DNA of 64,000 nt from Kribbibacterium absianum (GTDB lineage: Bacteria; Actinomycetota; Coriobacteriia; Coriobacteriales; Atopobiaceae), in the NCBI RefSeq assembly GCF_030067705.1, contig NZ_JASJEX010000002.1:1-64000 (forward strand), written 5' to 3'. Numbering within the stretch: the stretch's first letter is position 1; the number at the start of each line of letters is the position of its first letter. This document shows positions 27,579-40,149 of the stretch, piece after piece. The position numbers and the translations under genes were made by a program. The notes under the pieces are model-generated. The model did no database searches, was not told where the DNA came from, and saw only the letters and a program-made list of their open reading frames with translations.

Positions 27579-30500
27579 CTAGTGCGTCGCGCGCCCGCTC
27601 TCCTCCGTCAGGTGGCGGAGGCCGGCCTTCGCGTAGTCAATGGACTCCCAGTCCGCCTGCCACGTCCAGTTGCCCTCTTCCTGACCCGGCACGTTCATGC
27701 GCGCACCGGAAGCGAGGCCGAGCACGTCCTGCAACGGGACCATGACCAGGTCGTCGGCGCAATGGAGCGCCATCGCCACCACGGACCACGTCAGGTGGCG
27801 CGCGTAGCCCCAGTCGCTGATGGAGAACCGCTCCATCAGCGAGCCCATCAGGGTGTCGGTGTCGTGGGTGGAGGTGTACGCCGCCTTGCCGCGGATGGGC
27901 GTGAAGCCCTGGCGGATGTCGCCGCCCTTGTAGAACGGGATGACGTCCATGCCCGGGAAACCGGTCTGGCTCATGAGCCCGCGCACCACCGGGGTGATGG
28001 TGCCGAGGTCCTCGGCGATCACCGGCAGGGGGCCGAACTTCTTGGCGGCCGTCTCGAACAGGTCGAGGGACGGGCCGGGCAGCCAGCGACCCTCCGAGGC
28101 CTTCTGGCCCTCTTGGATCACGTAGTAGTTCTGGAAGCCCACGAAGTGGTCCAGGCGCACGCGGTCGTAGAGGTCGAACGCACGGCCGAGACGGGCGAGC
28201 CACCAGCCGTAGTCGTCCTTCTTGTGCGCCGGCCAGTTGTAGGTCGGGTTGCCCCAGATTTGACCCTCCGGCGCGAGGTCGTCGCCCGGCACGCCCGCCA
28301 CCTCGGTCTGGTGCCCGGTGGCGTCCAGGTTGAACATCGTGCGGTTGGACCAGACGTCCGAGGACTCCATCGACACGTAGATGGGCATGTCGCCGATGAT
28401 CTGGACGTCGTGCTCGTTGGCGTAGGCCTTGAGGTTGTCCCACTGGATCTGGAACAGGAACTGCTGGAACTGGTGCAGCTTCACGCGGCTCGTGAGCTCC
28501 TTGCGGGTGGCCAGCGCAGGCGACCAGTTCTTGTAGGGCGCCTTCCAGTCGGCCCAGCTCGGCACGTCGCCGGGCTCGACGTCGTCCCACATGGCGGGCA
28601 GCGGCTTGCCCAGCTCCTCCGCGGCGGCCTTCTCGTCGCGGAGCAGGTCGCGGATCGCCATGAACGTGGCGTGCGCCTTGAGCCAGCGACGGTTCTTGCG
28701 CGCGAACGCGGTGTAGGTCGCCGTGGGCACCACCTCGCGGCCGCGACCGGTGGGGATGGGCTTGCCCTCGCACCAGCTGGTGTAGAGCTTCTCCCAGCTG
28801 TCGCCGTCGCGGTCCACGAGGGACGGCTCGCCGGCAAAGGCCGAGAGACCCGCATAGGGGCTGCCGTGCTTGTCCACCGGGTTCACCGGGAGGACCTGCC
28901 AGTAGCGCTGGCCGGCCTCGGAGAGGAAGTCCACGAACCGGTAGGCCTCGGGGCCCAGGGTGCCGGGGCCCGGCTCCTGGCCGTCGGTGCGGGGCACGGA
29001 GGTGATGTGGGCCATCACGCCGGCACCGCGCTCGAAGGGCTTCGCCAGGGCGGAGGGCGCGTGGAAGCGGATCACCGCGGAGCCGAGGTTCGGGAGGTTG
29101 ACCACCACGTGGTTCTCCTCGAGGCGCAGCGGCAGCCCGTCCACCAGCTCGTCGGCCTGCTCGCCGAGGCGCGGGAGCCACACCTCGTGGCCCTGGTCCA
29201 GGTTGCGGTTCACGACGACGCAGAGGACCTCTTCGCCCGGCTTGGGGTTGCCGTTCTCGTCGGCGTAGTAGCGATAGAAGCCGTAGACGTCCGGGCCGGC
29301 CGAGAAGGGCCTGAAGTCGCCGTCCACGAGCACCGGGAACTGTTTGCGCAGGTTGATGGCGTTCGCGTAGAGCGTCTGGACGTCCTCGTCCTCATGACCC
29401 CAGGGGTAGGTGCTGCGGTTGTAGGGGTCGGTGAAGCCCTCGACGCCGGCCTCGTCGCCGTAGTACACGCAGGGCACGCCCGGCGAGCACATCTGCACGA
29501 GCACGGCGAGCCACATGCGGTGCTTGGCCAGGTCGCGCTCGCCCGGGTTCAGGCGGAACCAGTGCTTCTGGTGGTCGGTGAGCGACGCCGGGTCCGGCGC
29601 GCCGCCGAGAATCGTGAACAGGCGCGTGCGGTCGTGGCTGCCCAGGAGATTGAGGGTCTCGTAGAACGCCTGAGCCGGGTAGTTCTCCTTGAGGGTGGCC
29701 ATGCGCTCCACCATCTCCTCCGCCGGCCACGCGCCGGCGAGGTACTCGAGGAGCGCCTCGCGGAAGGGGTAGTTCATCACGGAGTCGAGCTCGTAGCCGT
29801 CCAGGTAGTGGCGCATCTCGCCGTAGGCCACCTTGTTGGAGGCGTCCTCCCAGACCTCGCCGAGGAGCAGGGCGTCGGGCTTGACGCGGTCCTCGGCGGC
29901 CTTGATGCCGGCGATGAACTGGTCGTTGAGCTCGTCGGCCACGTCGAGGCGCCAGCCGCGCGCGCCCATCTTGAGCCAGTGCTCCACGACGCCGTCCTCG
30001 CCGTACACGAACCGCTGCCACTCCGGGTTGTGCTTGTCGAGGTCGGGCATGTTGTCCACGCCCCACCAGCAGGTGTAGGAGCCGTCCTCCTTGATGAGGT
30101 ACCAGGGGTAGTAGGGGCTCTCCTTCCCCTGCCAGGCGCCGGGCTCGGGGTAGGTGCCGAACTTGTTGAAGTACTTGGAGTCGGTGCCCGTGTGGTTGAA
30201 CACGCCGTCCAGGATGATCGAGATGCCCACCTTCTCGGCGTCGGCGCACAGGCGCTTGAACGACTCGTCGTCGCCGAGCATCGGGTCGACCTTGAGGTAG
30301 TCGGCGGTGTCGTAGCGGTGGTTCGACAGCGCCTCGAAGATCGGGTTGAGGTAAATGGCCGTGAAGCCGCGCTCCGCCAGGCGCGGAAGCTCCTCGCGGA
30401 TGCCCTCGAGGGTGCCCCCGTAGAAGTTCCAGTCGTTGACGGCGCCGTTGGCGTCACGGTTGTACCAGACGGGGGTGTCCCAGTCGTCCACGAAGGAGCG

Positions 30501-31001
30501 ACGCTCGGGCGCGTTGCGGTGGAACGCGAACGCGTCGTGCACACGGTCCGCCCAGTCGGCGCCGCGCTTGTAGCGGTCCGGGAAGATCTGGTACACGATG
30601 CCGTTGCGGTACCAATCGGGCCGCACCGCGCGCTCGTGATACACGGTGATCTGGAACGAGGGGGGCATGTGGTTGTACATCTGGCCCACGCCGCCGGTGC
30701 GGCCCTCGCGCGCGCCGTAGTAGCGCACGACGCCGTCGGAGCCCTCGAGCACGAAGCAGTACCACAGAAGGCCGAGCGGCTCCGCGGTCAGCTGACCCGT
30801 GAAGCGCAGGCGGCCGTCGGCCTCCTCCGTCCGCTCCATGGGGATGAATTGCTCGCCAACGCCGTCCGCCCAGGTGCGGATGCTGGCTTTCGCCCCGGGG
30901 TCGTCCCACACGTCCACGCTCAACGTGACGGCGCCGCCCACAGGGGCGGCGCCGTAGGGAGTTCTGTACCCCAGGGCCCGACTGTCGTGCAGGGCCCTCA
31001 T
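27579..31001 (-). CDS. fusion of GH13 alpha-glucosidase/debranching-type enzyme and GH77 4-alpha-glucanotransferase
   Basis: A 1140-residue two-enzyme protein. The ATG at 31001 has GAGAGGA upstream. After an N-terminal beta domain, residues about 125-590 form a GH13 barrel with the nucleophile in GWRLDVADE, the acid/base in LLLGEVWE and the stabiliser in LLGSHDRTR. From about residue 640 a GH77 (MalQ-type) domain has YDRVRLDHFVGF (nucleophile), PVIAEDLG (acid/base) and TSTHDTDT (stabiliser). All six catalytic acids are present, so both halves should work. The protein would trim branches and rearrange maltodextrins released from glycogen. It is the last gene of the glycogen operon. Confidence 0.93.
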   Translation of the reverse strand: MRALHDSRALGYRTPYGAAPVGGAVTLSVDVWDDPGAKASIRTWADGVGEQFIPMERTEEADGRLRFTGQLTAEPLGLLWYCFVLEGSDGVVRYYGAREGRTGGVGQMYNHMPPSFQITVYHERAVRPDWYRNGIVYQIFPDRYKRGADWADRVHDAFAFHRNAPERRSFVDDWDTPVWYNRDANGAVNDWNFYGGTLEGIREELPRLAERGFTAIYLNPIFEALSNHRYDTADYLKVDPMLGDDESFKRLCADAEKVGISIILDGVFNHTGTDSKYFNKFGTYPEPGAWQGKESPYYPWYLIKEDGSYTCWWGVDNMPDLDKHNPEWQRFVYGEDGVVEHWLKMGARGWRLDVADELNDQFIAGIKAAEDRVKPDALLLGEVWEDASNKVAYGEMRHYLDGYELDSVMNYPFREALLEYLAGAWPAEEMVERMATLKENYPAQAFYETLNLLGSHDRTRLFTILGGAPDPASLTDHQKHWFRLNPGERDLAKHRMWLAVLVQMCSPGVPCVYYGDEAGVEGFTDPYNRSTYPWGHEDEDVQTLYANAINLRKQFPVLVDGDFRPFSAGPDVYGFYRYYADENGNPKPGEEVLCVVVNRNLDQGHEVWLPRLGEQADELVDGLPLRLEENHVVVNLPNLGSAVIRFHAPSALAKPFERGAGVMAHITSVPRTDGQEPGPGTLGPEAYRFVDFLSEAGQRYWQVLPVNPVDKHGSPYAGLSAFAGEPSLVDRDGDSWEKLYTSWCEGKPIPTGRGREVVPTATYTAFARKNRRWLKAHATFMAIRDLLRDEKAAAEELGKPLPAMWDDVEPGDVPSWADWKAPYKNWSPALATRKELTSRVKLHQFQQFLFQIQWDNLKAYANEHDVQIIGDMPIYVSMESSDVWSNRTMFNLDATGHQTEVAGVPGDDLAPEGQIWGNPTYNWPAHKKDDYGWWLARLGRAFDLYDRVRLDHFVGFQNYYVIQEGQKASEGRWLPGPSLDLFETAAKKFGPLPVIAEDLGTITPVVRGLMSQTGFPGMDVIPFYKGGDIRQGFTPIRGKAAYTSTHDTDTLMGSLMERFSISDWGYARHLTWSVVAMALHCADDLVMVPLQDVLGLASGARMNVPGQEEGNWTWQADWESIDYAKAGLRHLTEESGRATH

Positions 31002-31031: not shown

Positions 31032-32507
31032 CTACACGGGTGTTACCTCAGGATGCAGCCGTCGATACATATCGATGTACTGACTGGCCGCCTTTGTCCA
31101 GCTGAAGTCCACAGACATGGCTTGGCGCTGGAGGTTCTGCCACGCCGCCTGGTCGGTCCAGAAGACCTCGCAGGCGTTCATCAGGCAGTCCACCATTTCG
31201 TCGCCGTTGAAGTTGGCGAACGAGAACCCGGTGCCCTCGCCCGTGAACTTGTTGTACGGGATCACAGAGTCCTTAAGACCGCCTGTTTCACGCACAACCG
31301 GCAACGTACCGTATCGCATGGACATCATCTGCGACAGTCCGCAAGGCTCGAACAGCGACGGCATCAAGAAAAGATCAGCACCTGCATACATCCTCTGCGA
31401 AAGGCCGAGGTCGAAGTCGATCCGCGCGCACATGGAGCCCCGGTACTTCCAGTCGAAGTAGCGCAGGGAGTCCTCGTAGCAGCGGTCGCCCGTGCCGAGG
31501 ACGGCCACCTGCACGGAGCGCCCGAGCACGCGCTCGAGGCCGTACTGGACCAGGTCGAGGCCCTTTTGCTTGGTGAGGCGCGTGACCATCGCGACGAGCG
31601 GCCGGTGCGGGTTCACCTCGAGGCCCAGCTCCTCCTGGAGCCGCGCCTTGCACTCGGCCTTGCCGCTCATGTCGTCCACCGAGAACCGCGCGGGGATGTT
31701 GGGGTCCGTCGCGGGGTTCCAGGCGTCCATGTCGATGCCGTTGAGGATGCCCACCATCGCGCCCTCACGCTGGCGGAAGATGCCGTCCATGCCCTCGCCG
31801 AAGAACGGCGTGCGGAGCTCCTTGGCATAGGTGGGGCTCACGGTGGAGAGCAGGTCGCTGTAGATCAGCGCGCCCTGCATGTAGTTCACGGTCTTGGGGC
31901 CGCAGTAGAGCTGCGCCACGGCCGCCTGCACGCCCGCCAGGCCGCAGGCGTCCTCGAGCACGGTGTCGCCGTACTGGCCCTGGAACTTGGCGTTGTGGAT
32001 GGAGTACACGGTGCGCACGTTGTCGTAGAGCGGGAGCCCCTGGTAGAACTCGCGCAGAAAGACGGGTGCCAGGGCCGTCTGCCAGTCGTTGCAGTGCAGG
32101 ACGTCGCACCGGAAGTCCGGCAGGTACTGCAGCGACTCCGTGACGGCCTTGGAGAAGAACGCGAAGCGCTCGCCGTCGTCGAAGTAGCCGTAGAGGCTGC
32201 CGCGCTTGAAGTACTTCTCGTTGTCGATGAAGTACCACTGCACGCCGTCCTCGACGATGCGCTCAAGGCCGCAGTACTCGTTGCGCCATCCGAGGTTGAG
32301 GTAGAAGTCGGCCACGTGCTCCATGCGGTCGACGTACTCCTGCTTGATGGTGCCGTACTTGGGGAGCATGACCACCACTTGGCAGCCCTGTTTGACCAGG
32401 GCCTTGGGGAGGGAGCCCGCCACGTCACCGAGGCCGCCCGTCTTGCAGAACGGGGCAGCCTCAGCGGAGGCGAACACCACGCGGAGGTCTCGGCGTTGCG
32501 TGGCCAC
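31032..32507 (-). CDS. glgA: glycogen synthase (ADP-glucose type)
   Basis: A 491-residue GT5 glycosyltransferase extending glycogen from ADP-glucose. The N-terminus has the ADP-glucose loop CKTGGLGDVAGSLP, and the C-terminal domain has EPCGLSQMMSMRYGTLPVVRETGGL. The GTG start overlaps the glgD stop by one base (TAGTG). It is followed after 30 bp by the GH13/GH77 fusion. Confidence 0.95.
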   Translation of the reverse strand: MATQRRDLRVVFASAEAAPFCKTGGLGDVAGSLPKALVKQGCQVVVMLPKYGTIKQEYVDRMEHVADFYLNLGWRNEYCGLERIVEDGVQWYFIDNEKYFKRGSLYGYFDDGERFAFFSKAVTESLQYLPDFRCDVLHCNDWQTALAPVFLREFYQGLPLYDNVRTVYSIHNAKFQGQYGDTVLEDACGLAGVQAAVAQLYCGPKTVNYMQGALIYSDLLSTVSPTYAKELRTPFFGEGMDGIFRQREGAMVGILNGIDMDAWNPATDPNIPARFSVDDMSGKAECKARLQEELGLEVNPHRPLVAMVTRLTKQKGLDLVQYGLERVLGRSVQVAVLGTGDRCYEDSLRYFDWKYRGSMCARIDFDLGLSQRMYAGADLFLMPSLFEPCGLSQMMSMRYGTLPVVRETGGLKDSVIPYNKFTGEGTGFSFANFNGDEMVDCLMNACEVFWTDQAAWQNLQRQAMSVDFSWTKAASQYIDMYRRLHPEVTPV

Positions 32508-33604
32508 TAGTCGCGTCCCTTCCCCTTGATGAGAATGTTCTCGCGCGTGCCGCGGAGCTCGGTGCGGGCCGGGATCACGTTGTCGCGGTCCACGATCGCG
32601 CTCTCCACCTTGGCGCCGCTCTCGATGACGCAGGACTGCATCACGATGGCGTCACGCACCGTCGCGCCGGCCTCGACGATGACGTCGCGGCCGATGATGG
32701 AGTTCTCCACGCACCCGGCGATGCGCGTGCCGGCGGCCACCATGGAGTTCACGACCTTGCAGCCCGGCTCGTACTTGGCGGGCGGGTTGTCGTGCGCCTT
32801 GGTGTAGACCGGGCGCTCCTCCTGGAAGATCTGGTCGTCCATCTCGGGGTCCAGGAGCTTCATCGAGTTCTTGTAGAAGCACTTGGACGAGAAGACCGCG
32901 AGCGTGGGGCCGTCGAAGTCGTAGGTCTGCACGTTGACGCGGTCGAGGTCCGGCACCATGGCCTCGAAGAGGTCCAGGTAGTCGATGGACTGGTACCAGG
33001 AGAGCAGCTGCTTCAGGATGTCGATGGACACGACGAAGCAGTCGAGGAACTCGGTGTCGCCGTACTCGACGCCGTTGTGGACGCCCACGACGCGGCCGTT
33101 GTCGGTGCGGAAGCCCATGAGCGAGATGTTGGTCTCCTCGGCCTTGTGCGTGACGACGGTGATGTCGGCGCCGGACTTGGCGTGCTCGTCGACGAGGGCC
33201 TGGTAGTCCATGTTGTAGATGATGTTCGCGGCGCTCACGATCACGTAGGGGCGCGTGGTCTCCTTGTCGAGGAAGACCTTGTTCTGCACCATGTCGCGGA
33301 TCAGGAAGCGGGCGCCCGAGCGGGTGGTCCCGTAGGCGGTGCCGGGCAGCATGAAGAGGCCGCCGTGCTTGCGGTCGAGCGACCAGTCCTTGCCGCTCTC
33401 GAGGTGGTCGAGCAGGGCGCGGTAGTTGCTCGGCAGGATCATGCCCACCGTGCGGAGGCCGGCGTTGACCATGTTGGACAGCACGAAGTCCACCATGCGG
33501 TAACGGCCGGCGACGGGCAGCGCCGCAGGCGGACGGGCAGCGGTGAGGACGCTGGGATTCTTAGTGGAGTAGTTCGTCGTGATGAGGCCGATGGCGCGAT
33601 CCAT
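32507..33604 (-). CDS. glgD: ADP-glucose pyrophosphorylase regulatory-type subunit
   Basis: A 365-residue paralogue of GlgC. It lacks the glycine-rich nucleotide loop; its N-terminus instead reads ITTNYSTKNPSVLTAARP, as in GlgD of Gram-positive bacteria, where GlgD partners GlgC and is itself poorly active. The C-terminal left-handed beta-helix repeats are seen in the last 110 residues (AGATVRDAIVMQSCVIESGAKVESAIVD). The ATG has GGAGGAG upstream and begins 2 bp after glgC. Confidence 0.93.
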   Translation of the reverse strand: MDRAIGLITTNYSTKNPSVLTAARPPAALPVAGRYRMVDFVLSNMVNAGLRTVGMILPSNYRALLDHLESGKDWSLDRKHGGLFMLPGTAYGTTRSGARFLIRDMVQNKVFLDKETTRPYVIVSAANIIYNMDYQALVDEHAKSGADITVVTHKAEETNISLMGFRTDNGRVVGVHNGVEYGDTEFLDCFVVSIDILKQLLSWYQSIDYLDLFEAMVPDLDRVNVQTYDFDGPTLAVFSSKCFYKNSMKLLDPEMDDQIFQEERPVYTKAHDNPPAKYEPGCKVVNSMVAAGTRIAGCVENSIIGRDVIVEAGATVRDAIVMQSCVIESGAKVESAIVDRDNVIPARTELRGTRENILIKGKGRD

Positions 33605-33606
33605 CT

Positions 33607-34755
33607 TTACTCCTCCCCCTTTCCAACCACCACGTCGTCGCCGACGACCACGGTGTCCTTGACCTTGTCAACGGAGCCGAGCTTTGCGTTCTCCTCGACC
33701 ACGGCGCCCTCGCCGAGAATGGCGTTCACCACGTGCGCGCCAGCCTTGACCTTGGCGCCGGGCAGCAGGATGGAGTCCTCGACGATGGCGCGCGGGCCCA
33801 CGTACGAGTCCGTGGAGAGGATGGAGTGCGAGACGGTGCCGAACACGCCGCAGCCGTTGGCGACGAGGCTGTCGTCGACGGAGGCGCTGGCGCCGATCAG
33901 GTGCGGGCGACGCGTGGGGGCGTTGGACATGATCGGGAAGTTCTTGTCGTAGAGGTTGAACTCCGGGTCCGAGCCGAGCAGCAGCATCGCGGTGTCCTTG
34001 TAGGAGGCGATGGTGCCGACGTCGCGCCAGAAGCCGTGGAACTCGTAGCAGAAGATGCGGCGGCCCTCTTCGAGCATCCGCGGGATGATGTTGTTGCCGA
34101 AGTCATGCTCGGACTCGGGGTCGGCGGCGTCCTCCTTGAGGGCCTTGACCAGCACGTCCGTCGAGAAGATGTAGATGCCCATGGACGCGAGGTTGCTGTC
34201 CGGCTGGGCCGGCTTCTCGGTGAACTTGAGGACGGAGTCGTCCTCGTCCTTGGTGATGATGCCGAAGCGCGAGGCCTCGTCCCAGGCCACCGGCATGACC
34301 GAGATCGTGAGGTCCGCGTTGTTCTTGACGTGGACGTCGAGCATCTTGCGGTAGTCCATCGAGTACAAGTGGTCGCCCGAGAGGATCAGCACGTACTCGG
34401 GGTCGTTGGACTCGATGTAGCCGATGTTCTGATAGATGGCGTCCGCCGTGCCGGCGTACCAGGAGCCGCCGGTCTCGGTGGCGTAGGGCGGCAGGATGGA
34501 GATGCCCGCGCCGCGCTCGTCGAGGTTCCATGCCGCGCCGGTGCCGATGTAGCTGTGCAGCAGGTACGGCTTGTACTGGGTCAACACGCCCACCGTGTTG
34601 ATGTCCGAGTTCGCGCAGTTGGACAGCGCGAAGTCGATGATGCGGTACTTGCCGCCGAAGGACACCGCCGGTTTGGCGATGGACCGCGTCAGGGCGCCGA
34701 GGCGCGAGCCCTGACCGCCAGCAAGGAGCATCGCGAGGCACTCCTTCTTGCTCAT
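33607..34755 (-). CDS. glgC: glucose-1-phosphate adenylyltransferase
   Basis: A 382-residue catalytic subunit making ADP-glucose, the controlling step of glycogen synthesis. The nucleotide loop [11 protein letters not shown] and [19 protein letters not shown] are intact, as is the catalytic GDHLYSMDY. The C-terminal beta-helix ([24 protein letters not shown]) is complete. GGAGAGG precedes the ATG. The terminator-like hairpin at 34780-34809 lies directly upstream, between glgP and glgC. Confidence 0.95.
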
Positions 34756-34830: not shown

Positions 34831-37269
34831 TTAAACGTGCCAGATGTCTTCAGCATACTCGCGGATAGTTCGATCCGAGGAGAAGAATCCGGAGTTCGCA
34901 GTGTTTGCAAGAGCCATGCGGTTCCAGGCGCGTTTGTCCGCGTACTTGCCGCAGAGGCACTCGAAGGCGTCCACATAACTCCGGAAATCTTTGAGCACGA
35001 AGTCCGCGTCGTTCTGGTGCATCAAAACGTCATGGATCATCGAGAAGTCGCCGGACAGGCGCGCGTAGGTGCCGTCCACCAGCTGGTCGACGACGCGGCC
35101 GAGGCGCTCGCGGTCGCCGTTGTAGACGTCCCAGGCCAGGTAGTAGCCGTTCTTGAGGGCCTCCACCTCGTCGACCGTGAGGCCGAAGATCTGGATGTTC
35201 TCGGCGCCGGCCATCTGCGCGATCTCGACGTTGGCGCCGTCGAGGGTGCCGAGGGTGATGGCGCCGTTGGCCATGAGCTTCATGTTGGACGTGCCCGAGG
35301 CCTCCATTCCGGCCGTGGAGATCTGCTCGGAGATCTCGGCCGCCGGGTAGATGAGCTCGGCGTTGGACACCGAGAAGTTGGGCACGAAGGCCACCTTGAT
35401 GAGCTCGCTGGCGCGCGGGTCGTTGTTGACGACGTCGGCCACCGCGTTGATGAGGCGGATGACCTCCTTGGCGAAGACGTAGCTCTGGGCCGCCTTGCCC
35501 GCGAAGATGAAGGACGTGGGCACCGGACGGAAGCCAGGGTCCGCGATGATGCGGTTGTAGAGGTCCATCACCTTGAAGATGTTGAGCAGCTGGCGCTTGT
35601 AGGCGTGGAAGCGCTTCACCTGCACGTCGAAGATCGTGTTGGTGTCGAGCACGACGCCGGTGGTGTCCTTGATGTAGGCGGCCAGGCGCTGCTTGTTCTC
35701 CAGCTTGGAGGCGCTCATCGCATCGAGGAAGACCGGGTCGTTGTAGAACGCCTCGAGGCGGCGCAGCTCGGAGGCGTCGTCCAGCCAGCCGTCACCGATG
35801 GCGCTCGTGATGAGGGAGCTGTAGCTGGGGTTCGCGTTGCCGAGGAAGCGGCGGAACGAGATGCCGTTGGTCTTGTTGTTGAACTTCTCGGGCGTGAGCT
35901 GGTAGAAGTCCTTGAGCACCTCGCGCTCGAGGATCTCGGTGTGGATCTTCGCCACGCCGTTCACCGAGTGGGAGCAGATGATCGAGAGGTTCGCCATGCG
36001 CACCTTGCCGTCCCAGAGGATGGCCGTGTCGCGGAGCAGGTCCATGCGGTCGCCGTGCTCCTGGGTGAACTCCTCACGGTAGCGGCGGTCGATCTCCTCG
36101 ACCCACATGTAGATGCGGGGCAGCAGGCGCCGGAACGTGTCGATGGGCCAGGTCTCGAGCGCCTCGGGCAGCACCGTGTGGTTGGTGTAGGAGACCGAGC
36201 GGGTGACGATGTCCCAGGCGGTGTCGTAGTCGAGGCCCTCCTCGTCGACGAGGACGCGGAGCAGCTCGGGGCCGCAGAGCGCCGGGTGCGTGTCGTTGGT
36301 GTGGATGGCGACGCGGTCCGGGAAGGCGGCCCAGTTCACGGTGCCGTCGGCGTTGGTGTTCTCGCGCTTGAAGGTGCGCATGATGGAGGCGATGCCCGCG
36401 GCCACGAACAGGTACTCCTGCTTGAGGCGCAGGATGCGGCCGTGCTCGCCGGCGTCGTTGGGATAGAGGATCGTGGAGATGGCCTCGACGTCCGTGCGGA
36501 ACTTGGACGCCTCGGCGTAGGCGCCGTCGTTGAAGGCGTCGAGGTCAAAGGCCTCCTCCACCGGCTCGGCGGACCAGATGCGCAGCTTGTTGACGGTCTT
36601 GCCGCCGTAGCCCACGACGGGGATGTCGTAGGGCACCGCCTTCACGCGCTCGCCGCCCTCGAGGGTGAACCAGCAGCGGTCGCCCTCCTGGTGGCGCACG
36701 ACGTCGCCGCCAAAGGTGACCTCGACCGCAGACTCCGGCCGGCGCACCTCCCAGGGATAGCCCTTGGCGAGCCAGTTGTCGGTGACCTCCACCTGACGGC
36801 CGTCGACGATCTGTTGCTTGAAGAGGCCGTAGCGGTAGCGCATGCCGTTGCCGTAGCCGGCGATGCCCTCGTGAGCCATGGAGTCGAGGAAGCACGCGGC
36901 GAGACGACCGAGGCCACCGTTGCCGAGGCCCGGGTCCACTTCGCAGGCCGCGAGGGTCTCGAGCGTGGTGCCCATCTCGATGAGGCCGGCGCGCACGGTG
37001 TCGAGCGCACCGAGGTTGAGCAGGTAGTTCTCGAGAAGGGGGCCGATCAGGAACTCGAGGGAGAAGTAGTAGACGCGTTTCTTCTTCTCGGCGAGGATCT
37101 CGGCGTCGTTCTTCACGTGGATGGGGCGCGAGCGGAAGGCCACGAGGTTGCACAGGGTGGCGAGGCGCTCGTTGTCGTCCGCCTCCTCGAAGTCCTTGCC
37201 CACCTCGGACTCCACCATGCGCCGGTACTTGCGCTTGAAGTCCTCCGTGGACGTGAAGATGTTCTCCAT
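34831..37269 (-). CDS. glgP: glycogen phosphorylase
   Basis: An 812-residue PLP enzyme releasing glucose-1-phosphate from glycogen. The ATG at 37269 (MENIFTSTEDFKRKYRRM) has GGAG six bases upstream; a GTG nine codons earlier has no ribosome site. The PLP-lysine region is EASGTSNMKLMANGAITLGTLDGANVE, and RIHTNDTHPAL-like and VKRFHAYKRQLLN blocks are present. Full family length. Confidence 0.96.
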   Translation of the reverse strand: MENIFTSTEDFKRKYRRMVESEVGKDFEEADDNERLATLCNLVAFRSRPIHVKNDAEILAEKKKRVYYFSLEFLIGPLLENYLLNLGALDTVRAGLIEMGTTLETLAACEVDPGLGNGGLGRLAACFLDSMAHEGIAGYGNGMRYRYGLFKQQIVDGRQVEVTDNWLAKGYPWEVRRPESAVEVTFGGDVVRHQEGDRCWFTLEGGERVKAVPYDIPVVGYGGKTVNKLRIWSAEPVEEAFDLDAFNDGAYAEASKFRTDVEAISTILYPNDAGEHGRILRLKQEYLFVAAGIASIMRTFKRENTNADGTVNWAAFPDRVAIHTNDTHPALCGPELLRVLVDEEGLDYDTAWDIVTRSVSYTNHTVLPEALETWPIDTFRRLLPRIYMWVEEIDRRYREEFTQEHGDRMDLLRDTAILWDGKVRMANLSIICSHSVNGVAKIHTEILEREVLKDFYQLTPEKFNNKTNGISFRRFLGNANPSYSSLITSAIGDGWLDDASELRRLEAFYNDPVFLDAMSASKLENKQRLAAYIKDTTGVVLDTNTIFDVQVKRFHAYKRQLLNIFKVMDLYNRIIADPGFRPVPTSFIFAGKAAQSYVFAKEVIRLINAVADVVNNDPRASELIKVAFVPNFSVSNAELIYPAAEISEQISTAGMEASGTSNMKLMANGAITLGTLDGANVEIAQMAGAENIQIFGLTVDEVEALKNGYYLAWDVYNGDRERLGRVVDQLVDGTYARLSGDFSMIHDVLMHQNDADFVLKDFRSYVDAFECLCGKYADKRAWNRMALANTANSGFFSSDRTIREYAEDIWHV

Positions 37270-37335
37270 GTGATTCTCCAATGCGTCGCGGGACACGCCG
37301 GCCCCTGTGGCACGTTACATAAATCCATGAAATAA

Positions 37336-37389
37336 GGGACTCTCGGTCCCAAAGGGTGCCCCCGGATGCGGTGACACCCGGGGGCACCC
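37336..37389 (-). terminator. two hairpins between glgB and glgP
   Basis: A 12-bp stem (GGGTGCCCCCGG / CCGGGGGCACCC, 37354-37389) and a smaller one (GGGAC / GTCCC, 37336-37350) lie in the 141-bp gap after the glgB stop. On the minus strand a short TTT follows the large stem. Partial termination or mRNA protection is plausible. Confidence 0.6.
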
Positions 37390-37410
37390 GAAAGGGCTTG
37401 TGAGGTCGCG

Positions 37411-40149
37411 CTACTTGCGGCGCGGGGCCTTCTTGGCCGGCTTCTTGGCGGCCGCGGCCTTCTTGGGGGCCGCCTTGCTCGGGGCCTTGGCCTCGGTGGC
37501 CTTGGGAGCGGCGACGGGCTTCGCGTCCTCGGCGGCAGCCGGGGTAGCGGCCTTCGCGGCGGCCTTGGGCGCGGCCTTCTTGACCGCGGCCTTGCGGGCC
37601 GGGGCCTTGGCGGCCGGCTTCTTCGCCGGGGCCGGCGTCTCGGCCGTCGTGGCCTTGGGCTCGGCGGCCTCGGCCTTCTTGACCTCGGCGACGGCAGCGG
37701 CGTCCTCCACCGTGGCGGGGTTCGCCGGGGCGGCGACCTTCTTGGCCGGGGCGGCCTTCTTCATCGCCGGGGTGCTCGGGACCTTGGCCTCGGCGGCGAC
37801 GGTCTCGGAGACGGACGCGGCGTCCACCGTGGCGGCCGGGGTGGCGTCAGCGGCGGCCTTCGGAGCGGCCTTGGGGGCCGTCTTCTTGGCGGCAACCTTC
37901 GGGGCGGGCTTCGGGGCGGGCTTCTCGGCCGCAGCCTTCACGGCCGGCTTCTCCGCGGCCGGCTTCTTCGCGGCGGCGGGCTTTGCGGCCTCGGCGGCCT
38001 TGACCTCGGCGACGGCCATCACGTCCTCGACGGCGGCCGCAGTGGTGGTGGCCACCTTTTCGGCAGCGGCGGCCACCTTCTCGGCGGTCTTGGCGGCGAC
38101 GGTCTTCACGTCGGCCGCGGCCTTCTCGACCGTCTTCTTGGCGGCGGCAGTGGTCTTCTTGGCGGCCGTCGTCTTCTTGGCCGCAGGCTTGCGGGCCGGC
38201 TTGGGCGGCACGTAGCTGGACTTGCCGGCGCGCTTGAGCACCACGCCCGCCAGCGGCGGCACGCGCAGCACGATGGAGTTCTCGCAGCCGTCGTAGGGCT
38301 CGGGGGTGGACACGAGCTTGCCCTCGTTGATCACGCCGGAGCCGCCGAACTCGGTGGCGTCGGAGTTGAAGACCTCCACGTAGTCGCCCTCGCGCGGCAC
38401 GCCGATGCGGAACTCCTCGTAGCAGGCCGGGTCCCAGTTGATGAGGACCACGCGGTCGTCCACCGGGCGGTCGCCCTTGCGGGTGTAGACGATGATGGAC
38501 TGCTCGGAGTTGTCGGCGTCGATCCACTCGAAGCCCTCGGGCTCGTAGTTCTTCTGCCAGAGGCCCTTGTTCTCCTTGAAGAAGGCGTTGAGGGTCTCGA
38601 TGTAGTGCTGGTAGTTGCGGTGCGTGTCGTACTGGTCCGTGAGGAACCACTGGATGCCCTCGTAGTAGCGCCACTCGATGAACTGGGCGATCTCGTTGCC
38701 CATGAAGTTGAGCTTGGCGCCGGTGTGGGTCATCTGATAGAGGGCGAGGCAGCGGAGGCCGGCGAATTGGCGCCACCAGTCGCCCGGCTGGCGCTGGACC
38801 AGCGAGGCCTTGCCGTGCACGACCTCGTCGTGGGACAGCGGCAGCACGTAGTTCTCGGCGAACGCGTACATCATCGAGAAGGTCAGCAGGCGGTGGTTGC
38901 CCGGGCGCCAGGGGAAGTCCGTCCGGCAGTAGTTGAGGGTGTCGTTCATCCACCCCATGTCCCACTTGTAGTCGAAGCCGAGGGCCTTCTCGTCAACGTC
39001 GGTGGGGCGCGTGACGTACGGCCACGCGGTGGACTCCTCGGCCACCATCATGACGTCCGAGTGGTACTCGTGGATGGTGTCGTTGGTGTGTCGGATGAAG
39101 TCGATCGCGACGAAGTCCTCCTCGGTGCCGCGGTCGTTGAACTTCTTCTGCGCCGGGTCGTCGACGCCGAAGTTCAGGTAGAGCATCGAGGTCACGCCGT
39201 CCATGCGGATGCCGTCGGCGTGGTACTTCTCGAGCCAGAAGAGCGCGTTGGAGATCAGGAACGTGCGCACCTCGCCGCGGGAGAAGTCGAACTTGTAGGT
39301 GCCCCAGTTGGGGTGCTCCTCCTTCTCGTAGAGCTTCTGGCCGTTGAAGTGCACGAGGCCCTGGATGTCACGGCAGAAGCCGCCCGGCACCCAGTCGAGG
39401 ATGACGCCGATGCCGGCCTGGTGGCAGCGGTCCATGAAGGCCATGAACTGCTGGGGGTCGCCGTAGCGCGCGGTGGGCGCGTAGTAGCCGGTGGTCTGGT
39501 AGCCCCAGGAGCCGTCGAAGGGGTGCTCCATCACGGGCATCAGCTCGATGTGGGTGTAGCCCATCTTGGCCACATAGTCGACGAGCTCGTGGGACAGCTC
39601 CTCGTAGGAGAGGTAGGAGCCGCCGCCCTCACCGAAGCCGAGGCCGTCGAGGCCGTCGTCGTGGCGCTTCCAGGAGCCCAGGTGCACCTCGTAGATGTTG
39701 AGCGGGCGCTTGCGGTGGTCGGTGTGCGCGCGACGGCCCATGTAGAGGCCGTCGTGCCAGGTGTAGGAGTCGAGGTCCGCAAGGCGGCTCGCGGTCCCCG
39801 GGGGGCACTCGCTGTAGAAGGCGTAGGGGTCGGCCTTGTACTGCTCGGAACCGTCGTTGCACAGGATGTAGAACTTGTACAGGTCGCCGTCCTGGGCGCC
39901 GGGCACGAAGCCCTCCCAGACGCCGCCGTGGTCGGCGGCCGTCAGGAGGTTCGCGTCGATGTTCCAATCGTTGAAGGAACCGATGACGGACACCTTGCGG
40001 ACGTCCGGGGCCCACACGGCGAAATGGTAGCCGGGCACGCCGTCGACGACGTCCTTGTGGGCGCCCATCTTCTCGTAGCTGCGGTGCCAGTCGCCCTTGG
40101 CGAACAAGTACAGGTCATCGTTGGTGATGGTCAGCTGGTCGGAGCTCAT
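37411..40149 (-). CDS. glgB: 1,4-alpha-glucan branching enzyme with long histone H1-like tail
   Basis: A 912-residue protein. The ATG at 40149 (MSSDQLTITNDDLYLFAKGDWH) has GGAGGG eight bases upstream; the longer frame upstream is non-coding. Residues about 20-140 are the CBM48-type N-terminal domain and about 150-560 the GH13 barrel, with nucleophile in GIRMDGV, acid/base in VAEESTAWP and PLSHDEVVHGK. The beta C-terminal domain ends near 643. Residues 644-912 are an extension of almost only Ala, Lys, Pro, Thr, Val and Glu, with repeated AAKKPA/KAAPKAA units and two copies of a VEDxxAVAEVKxAEAA stretch, ending KKAPRRK. It is the first gene of the glycogen operon. Confidence 0.95.
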   Translation of the reverse strand: MSSDQLTITNDDLYLFAKGDWHRSYEKMGAHKDVVDGVPGYHFAVWAPDVRKVSVIGSFNDWNIDANLLTAADHGGVWEGFVPGAQDGDLYKFYILCNDGSEQYKADPYAFYSECPPGTASRLADLDSYTWHDGLYMGRRAHTDHRKRPLNIYEVHLGSWKRHDDGLDGLGFGEGGGSYLSYEELSHELVDYVAKMGYTHIELMPVMEHPFDGSWGYQTTGYYAPTARYGDPQQFMAFMDRCHQAGIGVILDWVPGGFCRDIQGLVHFNGQKLYEKEEHPNWGTYKFDFSRGEVRTFLISNALFWLEKYHADGIRMDGVTSMLYLNFGVDDPAQKKFNDRGTEEDFVAIDFIRHTNDTIHEYHSDVMMVAEESTAWPYVTRPTDVDEKALGFDYKWDMGWMNDTLNYCRTDFPWRPGNHRLLTFSMMYAFAENYVLPLSHDEVVHGKASLVQRQPGDWWRQFAGLRCLALYQMTHTGAKLNFMGNEIAQFIEWRYYEGIQWFLTDQYDTHRNYQHYIETLNAFFKENKGLWQKNYEPEGFEWIDADNSEQSIIVYTRKGDRPVDDRVVLINWDPACYEEFRIGVPREGDYVEVFNSDATEFGGSGVINEGKLVSTPEPYDGCENSIVLRVPPLAGVVLKRAGKSSYVPPKPARKPAAKKTTAAKKTTAAAKKTVEKAAADVKTVAAKTAEKVAAAAEKVATTTAAAVEDVMAVAEVKAAEAAKPAAAKKPAAEKPAVKAAAEKPAPKPAPKVAAKKTAPKAAPKAAADATPAATVDAASVSETVAAEAKVPSTPAMKKAAPAKKVAAPANPATVEDAAAVAEVKKAEAAEPKATTAETPAPAKKPAAKAPARKAAVKKAAPKAAAKAATPAAAEDAKPVAAPKATEAKAPSKAAPKKAAAAKKPAKKAPRRK

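Follow-up and report, generated by a model that had tools for sequence, protein, structure and literature searches.

A histone H1-like basic tail on the glycogen branching enzyme GlgB of two Coriobacteriales families, and its possible role in tethering glycogen

Results

The glycogen operon and the branching enzyme core

The window, a stretch of 64,000 nucleotides from Kribbibacterium absianum, carries on its minus strand a glycogen operon in the order glgB-glgP-glgC-glgD-glgA-glgX/malQ (Table 1), a layout that is conserved in relatives. The glgX-malQ fusion, the last gene of the operon, encodes one protein of 1140 aa. A GC-rich, strong hairpin lies between glgB and glgP (37345-37395, minus strand; GGGTGCCCCCGG...CCGGGGGCACCC, followed by TTT) and resembles a terminator or processing site. 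The sequence AGGAGG is found just upstream of the glgB start codon, and the core and tail of the encoded protein are read as a single open frame, with no stop before the terminal TAG.

Table 1. Positions in the window of the glycogen operon genes and of the features of GlgB
Feature	Position	Strand	Basis or remarks
glgX-malQ type fusion, without tail	27579..31001	minus	debranching enzyme + 4-alpha-glucanotransferase
glgA, glycogen synthase, tailless in the window	31032..32507	minus	
glgD, without tail	32507..33604	minus	
glgC, without tail	33607..34755	minus	
glgP, glycogen phosphorylase, without tail	34831..37296	minus	
glgB, complete gene, 912 aa	37411..40149	minus	ATG start 40149, TAG stop 37411-37413
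GlgB core, residues 1-643: CBM48, GH13 catalytic domain, alpha-amylase C domain	38221..40149	minus	Pfam and NCBIfam matches, fold match
Region I DWVPGGFC, Gly257 where solved GlgBs have His (DWVPGHF)	39374..39396	minus	
H1-like basic tail, residues 644-912, 269 aa, net +34	37414..38220	minus	composition, motif count
Predicted single long helix in tail, residues 667-720	37990..38151	minus	AlphaFold2, block-mean pLDDT mostly 70-79
Stretch with both VEDxxAVAEVKxAEAA copies, VEDVMAVAEVKAAEAA and VEDAAAVAEVKKAEAA	37660..38030	minus	

The original prediction, that the branching enzyme is complete to about residue 643, agrees with the NCBIfam GlgB models, which span residues 7-641. The equivalog models PRK12313 (804.9 bits, cut-off 577) and TIGR01515 (713.4 bits, cut-off 464) were matched over their full length, and the only Pfam matches on the protein were CBM48, alpha-amylase and GlgB_N. 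The catalytic residues of GH13 regions II to IV are present (GIRMDGV, VAEEST and LSHDE), and the catalytic R, D, E, H and D are invariant across the alignment of the order. The predicted core matches solved branching enzyme structures in fold; AlphaFold2, supplied with 27 orthologues, modelled it with mixed, mostly good confidence. The protein thus shares fold, domains and catalytic carboxylate motifs with canonical GlgB such as that of E. coli or Cyanothece, whereas canonical GlgB has no H1-like tail and carries His instead of Gly in region I. To our knowledge, the sequence and solved structures of E. coli GlgB include no such tail.

The C-terminal tail

A histone H1-like tail of about 270 residues, ending in KKAPRRK, had been predicted at 37411-38220. 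The tail is real and in-frame, its length and terminal residues were given accurately, and the interval located it correctly except that it takes in the stop codon. Its composition is dominated by A (104 residues, 39%), K (53, 20%) and P (32, 12%), with V 22, T 21, E 17 and R 4; the K:R ratio is thus 53:4, compared with 26:32 in the core. By its codon usage the tail is coding-like, since its GC3 (0.948) is near that of the core (0.978) and every lysine codon (53 of 53) is AAG, the same as in the core. H1-type motifs (AAKK, PAKK, KAAP, KPAA, KKAA and others) occur 25 times in the tail and not at all in the core; shuffled tails contained 9.3 on average, and 25 was reached in one of 500 shuffles. 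The internal duplication of VEDxxAVAEVKxAEAA that had been noticed earlier was also borne out, with 13 of 16 positions identical, a value equalled in one of 200 shuffles.

The AlphaFold2 model places residues from about 721 to 912 below a pLDDT of 50, that is, as predicted disorder. Two parts of the tail, residues 689-733 and 779-823, have a near-neutral net charge. Taken together, the composition, the motif count and the predicted disorder of residues 721-912 describe a disordered, basic C-terminal domain of Lys/Ala/Pro repeats, and no C-terminus of this kind was found among the other ORFs of the window (51 ORFs selected). Because the tail, used as a protein query against its own genome, matched only itself, DNA patterns were used for the own-genome search, and besides GlgB only the tail of ribosomal protein bL31 contained the K[AT][AP]x repeat. 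The bL31 gene (G000:C3 around 36137, L119) specifies a long Ala/Lys/Glu-rich C-terminal extension. A match to KK[AP]xKK[AP] at C1:227604 (L114) was a chance match within an unrelated ORF.

Distribution of the tail among branching enzymes

GlgB orthologues were sought in 60 related genomes and in a set of named genomes. A tail was scored when it had at least 20 aa, a net charge of at least +5, at least 15% Lys, and K, A, P and T making up at least half of its residues. Whole tails were scored because a test on the last 30 residues depends on the stretch chosen; in its strict form, whose result hinges on that choice, it flagged 10 of 20 GlgBs and none of 143 other ORFs. In the window's family and the Collinsella family (so called for f10 because named Collinsella loci group with f10 rows in the tree), 28 of 30 full-length orthologues passed the threshold. 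These counts exclude L015, whose tail runs off its contig, as well as L019, a near-copy of L016; L027 (a 23-aa tail, +4) and L029 (a 17-aa basic tail) were scored as tailless. All full-length orthologues of the order that were examined end in a net basic stretch, mostly rich in Lys, Ala, Pro and Thr and 17 to 270 aa long, the tail of the window's GlgB being the longest among them. Relatives are therefore not tailless, and the earlier statement that such tails do not occur on GlgB fails for these two families as well as for several unrelated GlgB lineages (see below).

Members of both families share the junction (K/P)SSYxPPKP, which suggests that their tails have one origin. Because this junction occurs in members of both families and 28 of 30 orthologues are tailed although core identity to the window's GlgB drops to 62%, the tail is probably old in the order and has been retained. 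Past the junction the tail sequence is only weakly alignable and its composition is kept; alignments between tails of the closest genera are a little better than those of shuffled tails. All 10 copies of a second GlgB paralogue in these genomes, at about 40% identity, are tailless. The copy in the window's own genome (G000:C1:66014-67711) is divergent (42% identity, region I LLDFAAVHF), likewise ends without a tail and has counterparts in about ten relatives.

Outside the order most GlgBs have no tail, and 11 of 76 carry one, among them some from Oscillospiraceae, Lachnospiraceae, Eubacteriaceae, Paenibacillus, Chloroflexota and Bacteroidota. Tail presence on the GlgB tree needs 11 state changes, a number that depends on the threshold and does not separate gain from loss. 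Judged from this distribution, tails arose repeatedly in unrelated GlgB lineages outside the order.

The glycine in region I

The His in region I of GH13 GlgB is widely conserved and is not, by itself, decisive for membership. The Cyanothece branching enzyme structures in the alignment have it, as do GlgBs of the named set from outside the order, and the position of Gly257 is Gly in 29 of 29 aligned orthologues of the order. Among 396 genomes sampled from the phylum, 20 have the DWVPGG pattern, and these belong without exception to the two families; RxDGV replaces RxDAV in the tailed Coriobacteriales clade. Because some genomes (for example, G020 and G022) have no other detected full-length GH13 GlgB, the Gly257-type enzyme is probably active; the model scores are far above the cut-offs. 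The tail and the region-I Gly coincide in the order but are not linked in general, since tailed GlgBs elsewhere have His.

Tails on glycogen synthase and on proteins outside the operon

The comparison of operons covered 28 stretches of the order, plus two loci of Collinsella. A GlgA with an H1-like tail, of 117 to 329 aa, was found in all nine Collinsella-family genomes (L178-L186), and the window's family contributes one genome, G011 (L192), where the tail is a KPAA-type repeat array like that of AlgP, 286 aa long and with a net charge of +61. Many GlgA tails end near SVSAARKTTTRKR. No such tail was found in the operons of the order on GlgP (0/25), GlgC (0/30), GlgD (0/29) or GlgX-MalQ (0/17). 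Because GlgB and GlgA are tailed and these other enzymes are not, the tail, in the genomes compared, is found within the operon only on the two enzymes that build the polymer. Outside the order, where 11 of 76 GlgBs are tailed, none of 108 operon neighbours was (27 GlgA, 30 GlgD, 35 GlgC and 16 GlgP); these rows are related to one another, so that Fisher values serve only as a description of the contrast.

This pattern bears on a rival explanation, that the tail is a near-neutral, low-complexity growth at a 3' end whose GC-rich sequence is prone to slippage and whose length changes by drift. The spread of lengths from 17 to 270 aa and the overlapping tandem repeats are as such drift would produce. 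We nevertheless consider it quite improbable: in this GC-rich genome Lys outnumbers Arg strongly in the tail but not in the core, every full-length orthologue of the order has kept a net basic end, the operon restricts the tail to GlgB and GlgA, and the tail has originated repeatedly.

Some of the Collinsella-family GlgA tails are acidic and of Pro-Glu type over their first third, and basic and of Lys/Ala/Thr type over the rest, with charges of, for example, -21/+32 and -25/+32. Such blocks are expected of coacervating partners, and one could envision that the basic arm binds the acidic cores of other GlgB molecules, or the acidic stretches of GlgA, and so forms enzyme clusters and a glycogen-making condensate without involving the nucleoid. 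The computed net charges of the window's protein, -39 for the core and +34 for the tail, are opposite within one polypeptide, and the predicted helix in the first part of its tail would also fit. Self-association alone, however, does not explain the H1-type repeat motifs, and the core charge was computed for the window's protein only. We regard this as a rather unlikely alternative, if one to be taken seriously.

In relatives, the K[AT][AP]x repeat is also present on topoisomerase I, IF-2, trigger factor and some membrane or esterase-like proteins, so that the tail module itself, as traced by this repeat, is not confined to glycogen enzymes. Four proteins of relatives were seen to carry H1-like Lys/Ala/Pro tails: a multi-pass membrane protein, one that resembles an esterase, an unidentified one and topoisomerase I (L162, L167, L169 and L173). 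Lys/Ala-rich extensions on bL31 and IF-2 in the order raise another scenario, in which the arm binds not DNA but polyphosphate or RNA and ribosomes, and links glycogen to polyphosphate granules or polysomes. A polyphosphate kinase gene (PPK1, PF02503) is present in the window's own genome, for which polyphosphate thus stays a candidate ligand, and in 38 of the 60 genomes searched, and AlgP, a protein with a comparable tail, localises to polyphosphate granules (PMC9239181). Several near-complete genomes with a tailed GlgB (for example, G013, G025 and G028), however, have no PPK1 match, so that polyphosphate made by PPK1 is not the general ligand. We think that this scenario, too, is rather unlikely, although with self-association it is the foremost competitor of DNA binding.

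Discussion

The closest parallels to a tailed GlgB are PhaF, PhaM and AlgP, which join a polymer-binding N-terminal part to a Lys/Ala/Pro-rich, DNA-binding C-terminal part and position storage granules (PMC9239181, PMC13052382, PMC3574117). PhaF and PhaM, of polyhydroxyalkanoate (PHA) granules, resemble GlgB in combining the two parts in one protein (PMC13052382, PMC3574117), and bind DNA via their histone-like domains (PMC13052382). They are, however, phasin-type proteins that do not build the polymer, PhaM being an activator of the synthase PhaC, whereas the GlgB and GlgA tails sit on the synthesising enzymes. AlgP of Pseudomonas aeruginosa likewise has a disordered, KPAA-type, H1-like C-terminal domain; it is associated with polyphosphate granules and needs this domain for their even spacing (PMC9239181). 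Unlike GlgB, AlgP is a dedicated helical protein and not an enzyme, its polymer is polyphosphate, and its tail is far more regular and more basic. Membership by descent in the phasin or AlgP family is ruled out for the window's protein, the N-terminal part of which is a GH13 GlgB by Pfam.

The AKKA/PAKK-type Lys-Ala-Pro tails of mycobacterial HupB and HbhA are also similar; theirs confer sequence-independent DNA binding, and binding to DNA or association with the nucleoid depends on them (PMC10665949, PMC5676037). In contrast to GlgB, both are nucleoid proteins with no polymer enzyme. An HU protein with an actinobacterial tail is ruled out for GlgB, which has no PF00216 (HU/IHF) match. Actinobacterial HU, to which the tail had been compared, is in any case a poor reference here: PF00216 had no match in the window's own genome or its relatives (40 Coriobacteriales genomes), while 9 of 14 control genomes matched. 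Because HbhA, whose tail has a similar Lys-Pro-Ala composition, is a surface adhesin that binds sulfated glycans, one might also take the GlgB tail for that of a moonlighting adhesin, and the cell surface was among the sites originally proposed. This we find very hard to credit, given that the protein has no secretion signal (N-terminus MSSDQLTITNDD), that the enzyme and its operon use cytosolic ADP-glucose, and that the tail recurs on GlgA.

The interpretation that we favour, with a probability of roughly 0.45, is that GlgB binds glucan with its enzyme part and a polyanion with its disordered arm, and so tethers glycogen in the manner of PhaF, PhaM and AlgP. The CBM48 and GH13 part would sit on glycogen, and the lysine-rich arm would attach to a polyanion of the cell irrespective of sequence, nucleoid DNA being the most likely one. 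In this way nascent glycogen particles would be anchored to the nucleoid, remain dispersed and be divided among the daughter cells, and the GlgA of the Collinsella family would supply a further arm of this type. Tethering would matter because glycogen condensates and the nucleoid of E. coli are mutually exclusive: the condensates exclude nucleoid, ribosomes and proteins, and phase-separated glycogen displaces the nucleoid, which leads to asymmetric division (PMC12706056). The arm may keep glycogen from coalescing and from excluding the nucleoid, as it does in E. coli. Both DNA as the ligand and tethering as the function we infer by analogy. Tethering of glycogen granules, part of the original prediction, thus stands as the function class best supported by that analogy; of the partners listed there, the nucleoid is the most likely, while on sequence alone RNA, polyphosphate and other GlgB molecules are serious competitors.

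Several observations speak against a nucleoid tether. Basic tails also bind RNA, polyphosphate, ribosomes and acidic protein surfaces, and the Lys/Ala-rich stretches of the order are found on IF-2, trigger factor, bL31 and membrane proteins as well. The tails vary from 17 to 270 aa, and those of 17 to 32 aa seem weak for tethering. The tail in the window is near neutral over the two parts given above and could fold onto the acidic core of GlgB, and the GlgA of the same genome is tailless.

Positioning systems have been described for PHA, polyphosphate, carboxysomes and magnetosomes, and glycogen is absent from a 2025 review of bacterial organelle positioning. In the open-access literature searched we found no description of tails on GlgB or GlgA or of tethers between glycogen and nucleoid, and an earlier account elsewhere is possible. 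We propose, a little more tentatively than the tether itself, that glycogen has a positioning device of its own, in which histone-like arms on the granule-building enzymes hold it on the nucleoid and the enzyme is the tether. The device would be carried by GlgB in two Coriobacteriales families, within the Collinsella family also by GlgA, and independently by GlgB in gut Bacillota and Bacteroidota. If this is true, many gut bacteria would control the location of their glycogen by means of a repeatedly evolved tail on the enzymes that build it.
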